Notes under the pieces: generated by a model
The model's database searches: none
What the model was told of the DNA's origin: nothing
What the model saw: the letters and a program-made list of their open reading frames with translations, nothing else
Part shown: positions 56,901 through 63,942 of the stretch, piece by piece
Position numbering within the stretch: position 1 is the stretch's first letter
Layout of the letters: every line of letters starts with the position of its first letter
Assembly: GCA_021825585.1 (NCBI GenBank)
Contig: JAKAGT010000011.1
Location: 1 to 64,000, forward strand
DNA: 64,000 bases
Source of the DNA: Bacteroidota bacterium
GTDB taxonomy: Bacteria > Bacteroidota > Ignavibacteria > Kryptoniales > JAKASW01
Direction of reading: 5' to 3'
Made by a program: the position numbers and the translations under genes

Positions 56901-57205
56901 GGATTATCTGACTTCACAAAGGGTTTGATTGCGGGTTCGCTGAGTTCCAGCTTCACGCTTGCCGGATGAACGCTCTCGTCGGAAGCCGAAAACAAGAATA
57001 CGTGCGACTGTTTACTGTCTGACAGGAATAGCGAAATAGAACGGGACTCTGTCAGTCCTCGCAGTCTCTTCTGCAGTTGGGCGGTAATGTCCTTGAAGCT
57101 GGCTTCACCAGTCAGTGCCGCCTCACAAGTCTCAGCGAAAGCCTCGAACAACGAATCATTGCTTTCTCTCTTTGAAGACTTGCCCTTAGGGGATTCCTTC
57201 GTCAT
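53960..57205 (-). CDS. soluble GAF/multi-PAS hybrid histidine kinase
   Basis: A 1081-residue cytoplasmic sensor kinase. Order: a GAF-like N-terminal domain (about 20-185), four PAS domains (about 190-700, the second enlarged), HisKA with H720 (SGIAHDFNNLLGS), HATPase (FEPFFTTKPLGKGTGLGLS) and a receiver with D1012 (VILDMLMPEMTG). Its layout and the kinase core closely resemble the kinase at 32779-36687, so the two probably share ancestry. No transmembrane segment and no output domain. Its target is not encoded nearby. Confidence 0.92.
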   Translation of the reverse strand: MTKESPKGKSSKRESNDSLFEAFAETCEAALTGEASFKDITAQLQKRLRGLTESRSISLFLSDSKQSHVFLFSASDESVHPASVKLELSEPAIKPFVKSDNPIHLRKDTSEFQTIKRKLFSEDGIETLEVYPLRFDTQFLGLLIGAFDRRFGSEADRESSIRTLSAAAKQLSLMIHSKETDDNYRALREKYSSALAQVPAAIFIFDPLTGRIIEANKAFFRSFGYHESDLEKLTLYDLATDPRPVVDAHIQKGLDAGFADIPSKVYRHKNGKEIEVEMRGTKVTFGGSTYMLISAIDTTERKKAKVEADLQRIRYENFIRNSAEGIWRIEFSEPIDVNQRTDKLAKEIVDRGVIVECNQALAKMYGFDFPTQLTGKHAYEFIADLDGYIASKVKFTEQNFSITNVETVEKDQHGNIHYFENSYIGEKSNDTLVRIWGIQRDITEKRRLQEQLRASENRYRNLVEQANDMVLLFNNRGEFVFANKRFFEQLNYAADEIWGKPISKIAHPDNAEAIMRRIQEQFDSPDEHSRYTVRLLTKFNEERIVELSMTTLRAAGKVTGIMAIGRDVTLEQSVKNALHESEEKYRSLVEHSMLGVLVVQDGLIVYANPTLGALFETDLNLLQGSPLDSLVHPNDYVQLSERLSEVALSPDRDIQFTIRIMSSSGRMKSLEGWAAGISYLGKPAIQAALVDVTDTKTLEEQLIQSQKMESIGQLASGIAHDFNNLLGSIYGAIEILRRRYAPKDVNLKKYIDVLDSSAQRAAELTSQLLTFSRQRESDFRPARLNDIVNDAMKILIRSIGKNIKIETTLDPTISIIEADTSQLESVIINLCINSRDAMPAGGMLRIATSNVEFTAHIVRQNPDAMAGKYVCMAVSDTGVGMDKEIQRKIFEPFFTTKPLGKGTGLGLSIVYGIVKNHKGFITVESELDRGTTFRLYFPSTDKIPSDDLESVPTEVPRGSERILIIDDEATLLDLTREILEGLGYKVLTAEGPIEGLKAYRKHFSEIDLVILDMLMPEMTGTDVYPLLKEINPDVAVLLATGLSIGEKVDDLVSMGVNTVVGKPYSVADLAVHVRDAIDSTK

Positions 57206-57535
57206 CTAAATCTAGCCTCAGCCTTAAACGGGTTTATGAATTTATCTCAGCAAATATAAAAATACAAACCGACACGCCGAAAAACGCTCGAATCGCGGTT
57301 CTCGTTCCCGAGCATGTCACAGGCCCGATCCGGCAGAGTATTTGGCATCCTATCTTCCTCTAACTAATCTTTCCGAAAAATCAGTCCCACGGTCGGAAGG
57401 CTCAACCTCTCACAGACAGGCTGTCCTGAAGGACGATAGAAATTGTGAGAACGGGCATTACAGCCGCCGTCAGCGTGTGCGGTCTCATCAAACGCCACCA
57501 GGCTCCCCAGTCCGTTCTTGTTCTCCTGCTCCTGT
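57206..57535. other. intergenic region, nothing recognised
   Basis: About 330 bp between two minus-strand genes. An AT-rich stretch lies just upstream of the kinase start (57240-57275), but no -35/-10 pair was convincing. Confidence 0.45.
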
Positions 57536-58951
57536 TCATTTGAACAAGGGCCTGAATCTGAACCTCACACCTATCTCATCTTCCGCAAATCTTCTGGCCT
57601 TCTCCACATCCACACCGTTCAAGCCTACTGCACTCATGTACACTTCTGGAATGTATCTCTTCGCCTCTTTTGTAAACTCGACCATCGAATCCCATTGCTT
57701 TCCGTTTCCGATACCCATGAGCCGCCCGTACTCTGCGGGATCCGCGGAATTGAGGCTTATTGAAACGGCATCTATCAGTCCGGCTAATTCAGGGACAATG
57801 TTCCGGTGGTTGATTATGCTGCCGTGTCCGTCTGTGTCGAGCCTGGTTCTCCCGCCGTTGTCCTTAACATAACGCGCCACGTCTTTCACCACCTGAAGTC
57901 TTATCGTGGGTTCACCATACCCGCAGAATACAATTTCCTTGAATCCCTTCGGATCGCCGATTTCCCGCACCAATTCTTCCGTCGAAGGTTCTGCCTCGAT
58001 GTGCAAATTGTATCCCTTTACCATCGCTTCGCCCTTCCGGTCACAGAAGATGCAGTCCGAATCGCATCGCAATGTCAGATTCAAGTAAAGGGAATTCCGA
58101 ATCTGGTACGTGATTCTCGGGGTCGGCGCCTCGCCTACTCCGAAGAGCTTGTACGCGTTGTATGAAGTAATCCTGCGGATATCAACTGCGGTCAAATCCT
58201 GGATCTCCGCTATTTTGTCGATGATGAAGGGAATATAAGCCGGACTGTTTGCGCTCCCCCGGTAAGGTGCGGGGGCGAGATAGGGTGCGTCCGTCTCCAC
58301 TATGAAATGTTCAGGTTGTATCCGTCTTACCGTGTCCTGCAGCTCCGATGGAGAGTTCTTCTTTCCGAACGTAATCATTCCGCTTATACCCAGGTAGAAG
58401 CCCAGTCCGATGGCTCGCAGTGCGACATCATAAGAGGAGTTGAAGCTGTGAAGTACACCGCGCGGCTGAGGATTAATCTGATAGTCAAACCTCTTCGGAA
58501 GTACCCACTCTCCGGAGGACTGTCTTTCAAGAATCTCGAAGAGGTCGGAGTCCGATTCCCTGTTGTGAATCGAAACCGGGAGCCTGACGGATTTTGCGAT
58601 TTCGATCTGGGCCTCGAAGGCTCTTCTCTGTTCTTCGGGTGGAGAGAGGTTGTAATGATAGTCCAACCCTATCTCGCCGATAGCCACGACCTTTTCATGT
58701 GATGACATCCGCGCGATCTCATCCAATGCCGCATGGTCGGCTTTGGATGCATCGTGTGGATGGAAGCCGACCATGGCAAAGACTCCATCGTAATTCCCGG
58801 CGAGCTCGATAGCTCTTTCGCTGGATGGCAGATCCCAGCCCGGAACGATAACGTACGCTACTCCAGCGGCCTTAGCCTCCTCGATTACCCGGGATGCATC
58901 TGTGAACTTCTCGTGATTTAAATGGGAGTGTGTGTCGACTGAATAATTCAT
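57536..58951 (-). CDS. TatD-family hydrolase fused to a radical SAM domain
   Basis: A 471-residue two-domain protein. Residues 1 to about 270 are a TatD-type metal-dependent nuclease: HxH in DTHSHLNHEKF, Glu in IGEIGLDYHY, His in VSIHNRESD and VLHSFNSS, Asp in VETDAPYLAP. Residues about 280-471 are a radical SAM domain with the cluster motif C296-x3-C300-x2-C303 (LRCDSDCIFCDRKG), GYGEPTIR and SISLNSADP. The second half matches the family known as TatD-associated radical SAM protein, usually encoded beside tatD; here it is one polypeptide. What the two halves do together is not established. Monocistronic. Confidence 0.9.
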   Translation of the reverse strand: MNYSVDTHSHLNHEKFTDASRVIEEAKAAGVAYVIVPGWDLPSSERAIELAGNYDGVFAMVGFHPHDASKADHAALDEIARMSSHEKVVAIGEIGLDYHYNLSPPEEQRRAFEAQIEIAKSVRLPVSIHNRESDSDLFEILERQSSGEWVLPKRFDYQINPQPRGVLHSFNSSYDVALRAIGLGFYLGISGMITFGKKNSPSELQDTVRRIQPEHFIVETDAPYLAPAPYRGSANSPAYIPFIIDKIAEIQDLTAVDIRRITSYNAYKLFGVGEAPTPRITYQIRNSLYLNLTLRCDSDCIFCDRKGEAMVKGYNLHIEAEPSTEELVREIGDPKGFKEIVFCGYGEPTIRLQVVKDVARYVKDNGGRTRLDTDGHGSIINHRNIVPELAGLIDAVSISLNSADPAEYGRLMGIGNGKQWDSMVEFTKEAKRYIPEVYMSAVGLNGVDVEKARRFAEDEIGVRFRFRPLFK

Positions 58952-59383
58952 TGGGTCCTGATTCTTCCGAGTTCATTTTGTTCGTTTTTGCGAATTCCAA
59001 AACTTTATTTGATAATTTCGGCAATCTGAAAGATAAATTCACGGTATGTCACTGAACGCGGTGGGAAATTGTTCCTCGCCCGGTCGCTTCAACGTTGAGA
59101 GTCAAAGTGAGGCAATGGCCGTAGGGCATGTGGCAGGTTGTCACAATCGCGTGAGGAATATTTATCCTGAAGGTGTTGAATTTGGCTTAAACGCGGCGTA
59201 TTTGCGGGCACGGTGTTTGACGTGATTTCTGTCGAGTCCTTTGATCCATTATGATTCTGTTCGGCAAAACTGACAGACAAAACTGACCTGCGGTCTGGAT
59301 CACTTTACAGAAGTATGCGGACTGTGGGTGTACCTGTGTAGAAACTGGATTCCGAAGCTTGTCTTCGGAGAAGGAGAACAAGG
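58952..59383. other. intergenic region before the 2-oxoacid oxidoreductase operon
   Basis: About 430 bp between divergent genes, without a supported gene. It should contain the promoters of both neighbours, but no consensus pair stood out. A hairpin near the right end is listed separately. Confidence 0.45.
59351..59369 (+). promoter_or_regulatory. hairpin directly before the operon's first ribosome binding site
   Basis: TCCGAAG pairs with CTTCGGA (7 bp) around CTTGT and ends 2-3 nt before AAGGAGA. It may tune translation of the gamma subunit or stabilise the 5' end. Confidence 0.4.
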
Positions 59384-59971
59384 ATGATTGAAATTCGCAT
59401 GCATGGCAGGGGTGGCCAGGGAGGAGTGATAGCTGCCAAGATTCTTGCGTCGGCTATTTTCAAGGAAGGGAGGTTTGCACAGTCATTCCCTTCGTTTGGG
59501 GTCGAGAGGAGGGGAGCGCCCGTCCTGGCGTTCACAAGAGTTGATGACAAACCGGTCAGGCTCAGAACTGCAATTTACGAACCGGACCACCTGATCGTAT
59601 TGGATGCGACACTGATCAAGTCTACCAACGTATTTTCCGGCTTGAAGCACGGCGGAACGATTCTGGTCAATACATCCGTTCCAGTTGAACTCGCCAGGTT
59701 TCCGGAAGAGTACACGGTAGGTGTTGTCGATGCCGCCGACATAGCCGTCAGGCACAATCTGGGAACGAAGAGTATTCCGATAGTTAACACTTCAATTCTC
59801 GGAGCGTTCTCCAGATTTACCGGGGTCGTAGGGATAGACGCCGTAGTCGAGGCGATTCGAGAAGGAGTCCCGATTATGCCGGACGAGAATGCGGCGGCGG
59901 CAATGGAAGCTTACGAAGCGGTCAAGTCGACTGCTTTGGAGCGAGTATCGGGAAAGGTAAAAGTAAATTAA
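59384..59971 (+). CDS. porG: 2-oxoacid:ferredoxin oxidoreductase, gamma subunit
   Basis: A 195-residue subunit with the family start MHGRGGQGGVIAAKILASAI, then FPSFGVERRGAPVLAFTRVD. With the alpha and beta subunits it forms the enzyme that converts a 2-oxoacid and CoA to acyl-CoA, CO2 and reduced ferredoxin. AAGGAGA precedes the ATG. First gene of a four-gene operon; pyruvate is the most likely substrate but others (2-oxoglutarate, 2-oxoisovalerate) cannot be excluded. Confidence 0.9.
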   Translation: MIEIRMHGRGGQGGVIAAKILASAIFKEGRFAQSFPSFGVERRGAPVLAFTRVDDKPVRLRTAIYEPDHLIVLDATLIKSTNVFSGLKHGGTILVNTSVPVELARFPEEYTVGVVDAADIAVRHNLGTKSIPIVNTSILGAFSRFTGVVGIDAVVEAIREGVPIMPDENAAAAMEAYEAVKSTALERVSGKVKVN

Positions 59972-59983
59972 GGGTGTGCTGAA

Positions 59984-61666
59984 ATGGGTCAATACAAATT
60001 CACAACTGTCGAAGAGATGCCCCCGTTGGCTTTCTCACTCGAGTCAACGCGCAAGATACCTACCGGAAGCTGGAGGCACGTCAGGCCTATATATAAGGAA
60101 AAGTCTTCCCCTTGCGAGATAGGATGTCCTGCAGGAGAGAATATCCCGCAGTATTTTGATCTTGTGCGCAACGGGAAATACGAAGAGGCCTGGCACAAGA
60201 TTCTCGAGGACAATCCGCTTCCCGGTGTGACGGGACGCGTATGTTACCATCCTTGCGAGGGGCAATGCAACAGGGGACCGTATGACGAGGAGATCGCGAT
60301 ACACAATATCGAGAGGTTCGTTGCGGACAAGAATTTCCGAAACAGAAACCTGCCGCGGTCCGGCGAGTTCCACAAAAGCGAAAAGATAGCGGTTATTGGT
60401 TCCGGGCCTGCCGGGTTGTCCTGTGCGTACCAGCTGGCGAGAAAAGGGTATCGTGTGGTTATATATGAATCGGAGCACGAACCGGGGGGAATGCTTCGGT
60501 ACGGTATCCCACACTACCGTCTGCCGAAAAACATTCTCAACAAGGAGATCGGAGACATCAAGAGTCAAGGCGTCGATATTAGTGTCGATTCCAAAATAGG
60601 GGGCAACGTCGCCTGGACTGAGCTTGAAAAGTATGATGCAGTCTTTGTCGCGGTCGGTGCGACCTCCAGCAGAAAGATGGAAGTGGATGGCGAGGACCTG
60701 CAGGGCGTATACAGCGGCGTCGAATTCCTTTATGAGCTGAACAACGGCAGGAAACCGAAGGTAGGCAACCGGGTCGTCGTCATCGGCGGCGGGAACACCG
60801 CGATAGACGCGGCTAGAAGTGTGTTGCGATTGGGGAAGAAGGTAACGGTACTCTACAGACGGACACGGTCTGAAATGCCCGCGGTACCGGAAGAAATCGA
60901 AGAGGCCGAAAAGGAGGGTGTCAAATTCGAGTTCCTTGTCGCACCCGAGGAGTTAACGGGCAATCGTGGAAAAGTCTCTAAAATCGAACTGATCAGGATG
61001 AAACTCGGCGAACCTGATGAAAGCGGAAGGCGCAAGCCGGTGCCTCTCAGGAATTCCAATTTCACGCTTCCGGTCGACACGGTGATTTCCGCGATAGGTG
61101 AAGCGCCGGATTTGTCGTTCCTGCCGTACTCGTTTCTCAAAAAAGGAGTGCGGATATTCGTGGATGAGAATTATTCCACGGGTGTGCCGGGGATTTTTGC
61201 GGGCGGCGACTCCGCGACGAATCCAAACGGGACCGTTGTCAATGCGATCAGGGCCGGAAAGGAGGCCGCAATCTCCATTGACGAATTTCTCGGCTGGAGA
61301 GCAAAGTCGGACGGTGCGCCGCGCGAAATCGTGAAGCCGGAAGAGATAAACACCTTCTATTTCCCGCATGAGAAACGTGTCAAAATCCCTCGTATGAAAG
61401 TTGACAGCAGCGTTTCCACGTTCAAGGAGGTCAACAAGACCATCAGTGATGCGCAGGCGCTGGAGGAGGTGGAGAGGTGTTTCAGCTGCGGGACATGTCT
61501 GCATTGCGACGTCTGTATGACCTTCTGTCCGGACGTTGCCATCAGCAAGGATGAGGCGGGCGAGTATGTGATTGACTATGATCATTGCAAGGGGTGCGGA
61601 ATTTGCGTGAACGAATGCCCACGCGAAGCCATGGAACTTGTCGAGGAGGAAACCCAATGGGTATGA
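59984..61666 (+). CDS. GltD-like FAD/NAD(P) oxidoreductase fused to a 2[4Fe-4S] ferredoxin (delta-like subunit)
   Basis: A 560-residue fusion. The N-terminal Fe-S part has CEIGCPAGENIPQYFDLV and GRVCYHPCEGQCNRG. The glutamate-synthase-small-subunit-like flavin domain follows, with GSGPAGLSCAYQLARKGY for FAD and VVIGGGNTAIDAARSVLRLG for NAD(P). The C-terminal ferredoxin domain has CFSCGTCLHCDVCMTFCP and CKGCGICVNECPREAM, the position taken by a separate delta subunit (PorD) in other organisms. It probably links the oxidoreductase to NAD(P)H. It overlaps the alpha gene by 10 nt. Confidence 0.9.
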   Translation: MGQYKFTTVEEMPPLAFSLESTRKIPTGSWRHVRPIYKEKSSPCEIGCPAGENIPQYFDLVRNGKYEEAWHKILEDNPLPGVTGRVCYHPCEGQCNRGPYDEEIAIHNIERFVADKNFRNRNLPRSGEFHKSEKIAVIGSGPAGLSCAYQLARKGYRVVIYESEHEPGGMLRYGIPHYRLPKNILNKEIGDIKSQGVDISVDSKIGGNVAWTELEKYDAVFVAVGATSSRKMEVDGEDLQGVYSGVEFLYELNNGRKPKVGNRVVVIGGGNTAIDAARSVLRLGKKVTVLYRRTRSEMPAVPEEIEEAEKEGVKFEFLVAPEELTGNRGKVSKIELIRMKLGEPDESGRRKPVPLRNSNFTLPVDTVISAIGEAPDLSFLPYSFLKKGVRIFVDENYSTGVPGIFAGGDSATNPNGTVVNAIRAGKEAAISIDEFLGWRAKSDGAPREIVKPEEINTFYFPHEKRVKIPRMKVDSSVSTFKEVNKTISDAQALEEVERCFSCGTCLHCDVCMTFCPDVAISKDEAGEYVIDYDHCKGCGICVNECPREAMELVEEETQWV

Positions 61667-62943
61667 ACGATACAAACGATCTCCGGAAGAAGAACGGCTT
61701 GATGCATCCTTCGGTAGACAAGGTCCTGGTCATCGAAGGAACACATGCAGCCTCTCACGCGGTGAGGCTGGCCAAAGTGCAGGTGATTGCGGCTTACCCG
61801 ATTACCCCGCAGACCGGTGTGGTGGAAAAGCTTTCTGAGATTGTAAGTCACCGGGAACTGAACGCAAAGTTCATAAAAGTCGAATCCGAGCATTCCGCCA
61901 TGGCATGCTGCATCGGCGCGTCGATAAGCGGCGCCAGGGCATTCACTGCGACTTCTTCGCAGGGACTTGCTCTGATGCACGAGCTTCTTCATTGGGCCGC
62001 CGGAAGCAGACTGCCTATCGTAATGGTGAACGTGAACCGGGCCATGGCACCGCCGTGGTCTATTTATGTTGACCATAATGACAGCCTTTCGCAGCGCGAT
62101 ACCGGCTGGATCCAGTTCTACGCAGAAAGCAACCAGGAGGTTCTGGACACGGTCCTGCAGGCATACAAGATTGCGGAAACCGTTTCGCTCCCGATAATGA
62201 TAAACCTCGACGCTTTCGTCCTGAGCCATACTTCGGAACCGGTTGCGATCCCTAAACAGGAAGTCGTCGACGAGTTTCTGCCTGAACGGAAAGCGTTGTT
62301 CAAGGTCGATCCGGCCGAACCGCATGCGTTCGGTGCGTTGATCGGTCCGGAAGCGTACATGGAAATGCGTTACAAACTCTTCCAGGCAATGGAGGATGCA
62401 AGAGAAGTTATTCGCAGAGTGGATTCCGAATATTCCGAAAAATTCGGGCGTTCGTACGGCGGGCTGGTGGAAGAATACTGCATGGAGGATGCGGAGATAG
62501 TGCTTATGACGTCGGCTACCGCGGTGAGCACGGCACGTATCGCAGTCGACGAGCTGAGAAGTCTCGGCTTTCCCGTGGGGTTGATGAAAGTGAGGGCATT
62601 CAGGCCGTTTCCGGTGGATGAGATACGCGAGCTCGCGCAGAGGGTTCACAAGATCGGCGTCATGGACAGGAATATATCGTTCGGCGCGACCGGTATGATC
62701 TACCAGGAGACAAAGGCCGTGTTATACAATGCATCCGTCAGGCCGAAATTGTTCGGCTTCATCGCCGGCCTCGGCGGACGCGATATCACTCCGGAAACCA
62801 TCAAGGACATTTATTCTTACCTGCTGAACCATGATGCACCAGAGAGCGAAACTATCTGGGTTGGTCTCAAGTCCGGGCAGGAGGTCCGGCCGGAGGGCGG
62901 AAATGCTTCATCGGCAGCCTTCGGGCAGAACGAAAACGTTTAG
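61657..62943 (+). CDS. porA: 2-oxoacid:ferredoxin oxidoreductase, alpha subunit
   Basis: A 428-residue subunit with the pyrimidine-binding domain: VIAAYPITPQTGVVEKLSEI, KVESEHSAMACCIGASISGA and ATSSQGLALMHELLHWAAG. The transketolase-C-like domain follows (GLMKVRAFRPFP). The frame stays open upstream inside the previous gene, so the start is set at ATG 61657, which has GGAGGA 6 nt before it. It pairs with the beta subunit encoded 12 bp downstream. Confidence 0.9.
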   Translation: MGMNDTNDLRKKNGLMHPSVDKVLVIEGTHAASHAVRLAKVQVIAAYPITPQTGVVEKLSEIVSHRELNAKFIKVESEHSAMACCIGASISGARAFTATSSQGLALMHELLHWAAGSRLPIVMVNVNRAMAPPWSIYVDHNDSLSQRDTGWIQFYAESNQEVLDTVLQAYKIAETVSLPIMINLDAFVLSHTSEPVAIPKQEVVDEFLPERKALFKVDPAEPHAFGALIGPEAYMEMRYKLFQAMEDAREVIRRVDSEYSEKFGRSYGGLVEEYCMEDAEIVLMTSATAVSTARIAVDELRSLGFPVGLMKVRAFRPFPVDEIRELAQRVHKIGVMDRNISFGATGMIYQETKAVLYNASVRPKLFGFIAGLGGRDITPETIKDIYSYLLNHDAPESETIWVGLKSGQEVRPEGGNASSAAFGQNENV

Positions 62944-62955
62944 GGAGATTATGCA

Positions 62956-63942
62956 ATGGGACAGATAAAATACCAATTACCGCCTGAAGAGATTCTTTCG
63001 CCGGGTCATTTTGCTTGTCCGGGCTGCGGTGGAACGCTTACGATGAGATATGTCCTGAAGGCTCTCGGAAGAAAGACAGTAGTTGTCATCCCGGCGTGCT
63101 GCTGGTCGGTGATCGACGGTCCTGTCCCGTACTCCGCGGCAGGCGTTCCGGTCTTTCATACCGCGTTTGAGGCTGCTGCTTCTACAGCCAGCGGAATCAA
63201 GGCAGGGCTGGAAATGCAGGGTGACCATGAGACGACCGTCGTTGCCATAGCAGGAGACGGCGGGACTTTTGACATAGGGTTTCAGGCGCTATCCGGCGCG
63301 GCCGAGAGGAACGAAGACTTCATTTACGTTTGCTATGACAATGAAGCCTATATGAACACCGGCATCCAGCGGAGTTCGGCTACTCCTTTCGGCGCCTGGA
63401 CTACCACGACTCCGACAGATTCGCCGAAGGCCGAGAAGAAGAAGGATATCGTACAGGTCCTGGCGGCGCATCACATTCCATATCTCGCGACGGCAAGCGT
63501 GGCATATCCTGACGACATGATTGCGAAGATTCAGAAAGCAAAGGAGATTCGCGGATTGCGTTTCGTCCACGTCTTCTCGCCTTGCCCCCCGGGGTGGAAA
63601 TTCGAGCCGGAAGACTCGATAAAAATCTCGAGAATGGCGATCGAAAGCAGGGTCTTCCCGCTTTTGGAAATCTATGACGGGAACGATTACAGATTAACGC
63701 ATGAGCCCGCGGGAAGCCCCGTGAGGGACTATCTGAAAATGCAGGGAAGATTCCGGCATCTGAAGGAGGCCGACATCGATGTAATTCAGAAGAACGTGGA
63801 TGAAGAATGGGAGGGGCTAAAAGGTAAGCTTGCTTATTCGATGAAAGTTCACAAATCGAACAACTCGGTCCGTTCTCAAGACAAGGAGGTATCTCTCGCA
63901 AAGGCGCAAAGTCGCAAAGGGATCAAACGGAATGTACGATGA
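62956..63942 (+). CDS. porB: 2-oxoacid:ferredoxin oxidoreductase, beta subunit, with repeat-derived tail
   Basis: A 328-residue thiamine-diphosphate-binding subunit. CPGCGGTLTMRYVLKALG holds an Fe-S ligand pair and AIAGDGGTFDIGFQALSGA with CYDNEAYMNTG is the ThDP/Mg motif. The normal protein seems to end near MKVHKSNNSV. The last 20 or so residues (DKEVSLAKAQSRKGIKRNVR) are translated from an octamer repeat, so the original stop has probably been replaced. The stop overlaps the start of a GxxExxY gene by ATGA. Confidence 0.9.
   Translation: MGQIKYQLPPEEILSPGHFACPGCGGTLTMRYVLKALGRKTVVVIPACCWSVIDGPVPYSAAGVPVFHTAFEAAASTASGIKAGLEMQGDHETTVVAIAGDGGTFDIGFQALSGAAERNEDFIYVCYDNEAYMNTGIQRSSATPFGAWTTTTPTDSPKAEKKKDIVQVLAAHHIPYLATASVAYPDDMIAKIQKAKEIRGLRFVHVFSPCPPGWKFEPEDSIKISRMAIESRVFPLLEIYDGNDYRLTHEPAGSPVRDYLKMQGRFRHLKEADIDVIQKNVDEEWEGLKGKLAYSMKVHKSNNSVRSQDKEVSLAKAQSRKGIKRNVR
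63896..63919 (+). repeat. three tandem octamers NCGCAAAG
   Basis: TCGCAAAG, GCGCAAAG and TCGCAAAG follow each other without gaps inside the 3' end of the beta-subunit gene and 20 bp before the GxxExxY start. I recall the same octamer motif from intergenic repeats near GxxExxY genes in other genomes; this was not checked. Confidence 0.7.

Follow-up and report, generated by a model that had tools for sequence, protein, structure and literature searches.

A TatD nuclease fused to a TIGR04038 radical SAM domain in a Bacteroidota bacterium belongs to a named combination found across at least seven phyla

Results

Two domains in one uninterrupted reading frame

The TatD-radical SAM fusion of this Bacteroidota bacterium is a real, old, widespread and already named combination. 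It is encoded within the window, by which we mean the whole 64,000-nucleotide stretch of DNA that was analysed. The gene and its domains are:

57536..58951, minus strand: whole fused gene, 471 aa plus stop, running from ATG to stop
58139..58939, minus strand: TatD nuclease domain, residues 5-271, Group II (HxH), matched by PF01026 and TIGR00010
58115..58138, minus strand: short linker, residues 272-279, defined by its length in the fused alignment
57548..58114, minus strand: radical SAM domain TIGR04038, residues 280-468

Pfam placed TatD_DNase (PF01026; E = 2.7e-73) at residues 5-271 and Radical_SAM (PF04055; E = 5e-17) at residues 291-457. NCBIfam models likewise matched both halves, with scores of 236.8 bits for TIGR00010 (cut-off 206) and 230.9 bits for TIGR04038 (cut-off 129.7, model positions 2-190 of 192). 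The definition of TIGR04038 includes association with a TatD family protein, and here both are on the same polypeptide. The first-pass annotation had placed the two domains in one polypeptide, as these matches confirm, and a check for a stop between the domains found none: the frame has zero internal stops across its 471 codons. An Rfam search across 57000-59700 gave 0 matches.

Spread of the fusion across genomes

We searched 61 genomes, comprising the source genome and 60 relatives, and detected the radical SAM family in 34 of them at E 1e-20. The fusion was present in 28 of the 30 TIGR04038 loci fetched from these genomes, own locus included; the other two (L020 and L023) were cut by contig ends, and L015 was fused with its start missing. 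On this count, two genes with a missed stop and an assembly artefact were both rejected as explanations. We kept as named loci the best 80 among 587 relatives of the genome collection: 79 of them were fused, and the exception (L094) starts at the contig start inside the domain. Taken together, the E-values and the same architecture in 28/30 fetched and 79/80 named loci exclude chance. The named loci come from Ignavibacteriota/Bacteroidota, Chlorobiota, Nitrospirota, Nitrospinota, Planctomycetota, Thermodesulfobacteriota, Myxococcota, Firestonebacteria and Acidobacteriota. The fusion thus spans at least seven phyla, and a recent fusion in the source lineage was rejected for this reason.

We also surveyed four phyla, in which "fused" denotes open-frame length and not a TatD search. 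In the window's phylum 86 of 395 genomes matched; 57 of these lie outside a single genus (g88, family f31), with frames of 452-605 aa in 55 and contig-cut matches in two, one of which (G258) reads as a truncated fusion. The phylum of Geobacter gave 20 matches in 118 genomes (19 long frames, one cut), Nitrospirota 42 in 100 (40 with long frames, the others being G639, which begins at a contig end, and G561, which matches the C-terminal part only), and Planctomycetota 23 in 119 (22 long frames). The remaining planctomycete, G719, showed two weak, short matches below the cut-off, which correspond to two tandem, distant radical SAM genes with frames of 284 and 281 aa (L150:2664-4361). A Methanosarcina acetivorans control was matched. 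No relative was found among 34 pattern matches in viral contigs, and plasmids yielded a single record, a TIGR04100 protein. Oxygen-lifestyle markers offered no contrast to set against presence of the radical SAM domain, since anaerobic RNR (PF13597) was found in 0/61 genomes and COX1 (PF00115) in 60/61.

The radical SAM family had been annotated as normally a separate neighbour of tatD. This does not hold in the sampled genomes, where fusion is the rule. The proposed count of fused and separate pairs came out fused nearly everywhere sampled, and separate copies above the cut-off came from one Bacteroidota genus only. The separate-neighbour form may occur in Bacillota and archaea, outside the sampled genomes.

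Catalytic residues of both halves are conserved

Conservation was scored in an alignment of 85 fused proteins, in which the following sites were located:

58922..58930, minus strand: HxH metal ligands H8 and H10, 85/85 aligned fusions
58673..58675, minus strand: metal ligand E93, 85/85
58565..58567, minus strand: metal ligand H129, 85/85
58448..58450, minus strand: metal ligand H168, 85/85
58289..58291, minus strand: metal ligand D221, 85/85
58043..58066, minus strand: CX3CX2C cluster motif, C296, C300 and C303, 85/85
57908..57922, minus strand: GYGEP, a GGE-like motif, with G344, G346 and E347 invariant in 85

The earlier statement that the TatD metal ligands and the C-x3-C-x2-C motif are intact is therefore borne out in every aligned fusion, and from these residues both halves are predicted to be active. 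The TatD half has the HxH and the remaining metal ligands of Group II, and the radical SAM half has the CX3CX2C motif and partial barrel fold of its superfamily. We take GYGEP to be the GGE-like SAM-binding motif. Beyond the three cluster cysteines, the only widely conserved cysteine in the radical SAM half was C343 (82/85), followed by columns 412 (37/85) and 452 (35/85). There is thus no sign of an auxiliary cluster, and a SPASM/auxiliary-cluster cysteine set was absent from the radical SAM half in the 85 fusions. PMC10085689 defines Group II by the HxH motif and counts E. coli YcfH and YjjV among its members. It describes 3'-exonuclease and AP-endonuclease activity for each of the three E. 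coli TatD paralogues, weak in YjjV, and H2O2 sensitivity of the triple paralogue mutant.

The two halves look structurally coupled

An AlphaFold2 model of the whole chain had a pLDDT of 95.1 and a pTM of 0.92, the latter suggesting a fixed domain arrangement. The stretch between F270 and Y282 was 11-12 residues long in 83 of 85 fusions, with one of 13 and one of 28. Comparison of fused and non-fused TatD proteins revealed a residue pair specific to the fusion:

58172..58183, minus strand: D257-x2-R260 in the last TatD helix, a putative interface, from fused versus non-fused conservation

D257 was present in 104/112 fused compared with 1/28 non-fused TatD proteins, and R260 in 101/112 compared with 4/28; the 28 non-fused proteins are mostly of one class and include Desulfuromonadia paralogues (L156-L158) and a very long branch (L159), all four of which had been omitted from a first comparison. 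Reading the five best PDB alignments by eye, we saw neither residue at these positions. In the radical SAM half, the G332-D333-P334 loop, K356 and G366 were relaxed in free copies of the domain (this comparison dropped the contig-cut L023 and L094 and the too distant L150). We read D257/R260 and these relaxed positions as two sides of a putative interface. The distances of the TatD and radical SAM halves correlated at 0.79 among 85 fusions, as expected of any fused protein, and this is not evidence of coupling. An interface prediction had been proposed in the first-pass annotation; the pTM, the constant linker and the fusion-specific residues bear on it, and with them the halves look structurally coupled in the model and the alignments.

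Each half also occurs without the other

Separate radical SAM copies scored above the cut-off 31 times in 29 genomes, all of genus g88. We fetched 18 such loci from 16 g88 genomes (5.5-7 kb each), and none (0/18) had a TatD reading frame nearby. Relationships were examined in quick trees of sampled rows with SH-aLRT support only; the radical SAM tree held 42 of 115 fused and 22 separate or cut sequences, and the TatD tree 42 of 112 fused and all 28 non-fused sequences. The separate copies formed one group inside the fused Desulfuromonadia, beside Trichlorobacter thiogenes (L100; support 95). In the sampled tree they look to have been derived from the fused protein and not the reverse. The free copies keep the invariant radical SAM core, which argues that the radical SAM chemistry needs no TatD in cis. 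In the TatD tree, three TatD-only proteins (L153, L155 and L165) grouped with the fused L037 and L061 (support 98). Their genomes had no radical SAM match, which suggests that this lineage has lost the domain. The halves are thus separable in both directions. The earlier claim that a fusion shows the two to act together is not supported as stated, as each half persists without the other; the close relatives with only one half, on whose absence it had staked its reading, do exist, as the TatD-only trio and the radical SAM-only copies within the fused Desulfuromonadia.

The genomic surroundings of the free g88 copies (L116-L131, L134 and L135) were of two kinds. One subset had genes for an MsbA-like ABC exporter and a small HMA metal-binding protein, together with NMT1/SaoA-like ABC importer and BadF/HGD-D dehydratase-like genes. 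A second subset had MFS, FMN reductase or Fe-ADH genes nearby, and two genomes (G186 and G244) carried one free copy of each kind. One TGA was seen inside the separate radical SAM match in G119, G144, G271, G358 and G424. In L126, L127 and L130 the reading frame ends at about the end of the match, and the TGA is probably the profile running past the normal stop.

In relatives of the same class that lack the radical SAM domain, TatD was also found joined to other sequences. An in-frame C-terminal extension of more than 150 aa was present in 13 of the 25 radical SAM-lacking relatives that have the main TatD (L141-L147, L162, L163 and L170-L173). Seven of these were inspected and showed a signal-peptide-like stretch directly after TatD, ending in an A-Q step. 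When five extensions were scanned with Pfam, a beta-barrel match (PF13505) fell just under the cut-off in L143 (E = 2.4e-6) and was weaker in L145 (E = 0.0038), with none in the other three. It would be odd for one frame to encode both a cytoplasmic nuclease and an exported outer-membrane protein. Since TatD is also joined to such an outer-membrane-like protein, a C-terminal fusion need not mean common function.

Genome role and neighbourhood

The fusion is the sole TatD in its own 100%-complete genome, and among the 61 genomes a second TatD beside the fusion was found in G045 only. Ten named genomes all had the fused TatD (10/10), with an extra stand-alone TatD in three and a weak, sub-cut-off match for another TatD in G437. 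In the 80 named loci, metG lay directly upstream (within 250 bp, same strand) in 22, and other upstream genes were holB (19), PSP1 (17) and tmk (10). We take these tmk-holB-PSP1-metG surroundings, which belong to fusions of other phyla, to be the classical tatD locus. Neighbours in the window and in Ignavibacteria were mostly unrelated to nucleic acids. In the window the fused gene has as neighbours a PAS sensor kinase gene and, divergent from it, an operon for a 2-oxoacid:ferredoxin oxidoreductase; close relatives preserve part of this arrangement, which we think uninformative. The operon (59384-63942) encodes three subunits, gamma, alpha and beta, and embedded in it is a gene for an NAD(P)-linked Fe-S oxidoreductase.

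Discussion

What the joined domains may do

We tentatively favour a reading in which the radical SAM half acts on what TatD handles: a nucleic-acid end, a lesion or a nucleotide that has been released. The fusion would be the genome's housekeeping TatD, a YcfH-like metal-dependent 3'-exonuclease/AP-endonuclease, with a minimal radical SAM enzyme rigidly docked at its C-terminus. TatD would trim or incise a nucleic-acid 3' end that is damaged or not yet mature. The radical SAM half, having neither an auxiliary cluster nor a lid of its own, might use the 5'-deoxyadenosyl radical to alter that end or lesion, or else the nucleotide set free. This reading is favoured by the presence of both catalytic sites in 85/85 fusions, the pTM of 0.92, the constant linker and D257/R260. 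It is further favoured by the status of the fusion as sole TatD, the metG, holB, PSP1 and tmk loci, the activities of the E. coli paralogues and the lack of an auxiliary cluster. Against it stand the occurrence of each half without the other, the intact core of the free radical SAM copies and the TatD-outer-membrane-like fusions, as do nearly tied fold neighbours with different substrates and gene neighbours mostly unrelated to nucleic acids. The fusion alone is no proof of a common substrate.

Almost as likely is that the domains are joined and catalytically independent: TatD would be an ordinary nuclease and the radical SAM half would work elsewhere, the fusion serving only co-expression and stability. 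The survival of each half alone, the unchanged radical SAM core in free copies and the TatD extensions in 13/25 relatives (outer-membrane-like in two of five scanned) all argue for it; the outer-membrane-like ones have no plausible common substrate with TatD, and with the persistence of single halves they give the idea its standing. However, persistence of the fusion in at least seven phyla, together with a constant linker and a fusion-specific residue pair, exceeds the needs of co-expression alone.

The remaining proposals are less likely than either of these two. It is unlikely that the radical SAM half modifies a protein in the manner of an activase or maturase, with TatD itself or a nearby-encoded RNA/DNA-processing partner such as the PSP1 protein, presumably RicT-like, as target. 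The domain is minimal, without a SPASM or auxiliary cluster, its fold is closest to NifB (Z 16.8) and the PFL-activating enzyme (Z 16.1), the latter acts on a protein, and PSP1 lies upstream in 17/80 loci; yet the domain scored far under the cut-offs of the glycyl-radical activases PFLA (25.5 against 231.75 bits) and YjjW (16.1 against 250.2 bits), and viperin, which acts on a nucleotide, fits almost equally well (Z 15.4). The first-pass suggestion that TatD is a D-aminoacyl-tRNA deacylase whose D-aminoacyl substrate the radical SAM half shares is very improbable: metG does lie directly upstream in 22/80 loci and a cyanobacterial TatD-like deacylase, Dtd3, is known, although our literature search found no paper linking it with TatD; but metG beside tatD is a general bacterial arrangement and so is silent on the radical SAM half, and the closest tested relatives are nucleases.

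The nucleic-acid-end reading also has a bolder form, to which we give little weight. The fusion would then be a bifunctional end-repair or maturation enzyme performing a previously undescribed radical reaction on a TatD-bound DNA/RNA 3' terminus or abasic/oxidised lesion, with the g88 free copies having moved this chemistry to a different substrate.

As a new pairing the fusion is ordinary, since it is already named and widespread. Its interest lies in the partners: TatD proteins occur almost universally, with a debated physiological role, and TIGR04038 is a named family with no assigned function. A lineage whose sole TatD bears the radical SAM domain is a clean system for both questions, in which D257/R260 offers ready sites for mutants and relatives that naturally have one half serve as controls.

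Comparison with known systems

A literature search found no work on TIGR04038 or on a TatD-radical SAM fusion; in excerpts of PMC3478167, TatD and radical SAM are in unrelated table rows. Viewed against solved structures, the TatD half was nearest to other TatD proteins, 1j6o (Z 40.1), 6l25 (Z 39.3) and 2gzx (Z 39.1). It shares the HxH motif with E. coli YcfH and S. aureus TatD/YcfH (1yix, 6l25 and 2gzx; Z 36.7-39.3 over 251-255 residues), which stand alone, unlike the fusion, and have E/E (S. aureus) or E/Q (E. coli) at the D257/R260 positions. QatD, the TatD of the Qat anti-phage system, is likewise a TatD family nuclease (56.1 bits, under the cut-off of 230), and we know of no radical SAM enzyme among its partners.

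The radical SAM half, modelled alone with a pLDDT of 94.7, had no close solved relative (best 3c8f, E = 0.0005). It has the barrel fold in common with NifB, the PFL-activating enzyme and viperin, which are nearly tied in the model comparison and too close to choose among, and whose partners and substrates differ from those of the fusion. Its score against the viperin family was 28.5 bits, below the cut-off of 180. The QueE structure 5th5 aligned with Z 12.7 over 166 residues, and no QueE (7-carboxy-7-deazaguanine synthase) family was among the 25 NCBIfam matches listed. TIGR04100 (rSAM_pair_X) showed full-length similarity at 158.7 bits, below its 262-bit cut-off, and stood alone in the single record examined (L140). 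With TIGR04038 itself (tatD_link_rSAM, "TatD family nuclease-associated radical SAM protein"), residues 280-468 match nearly the whole model and no difference was found; the family name itself states the TatD link, and the pairing is therefore not new, being already named in NCBIfam.
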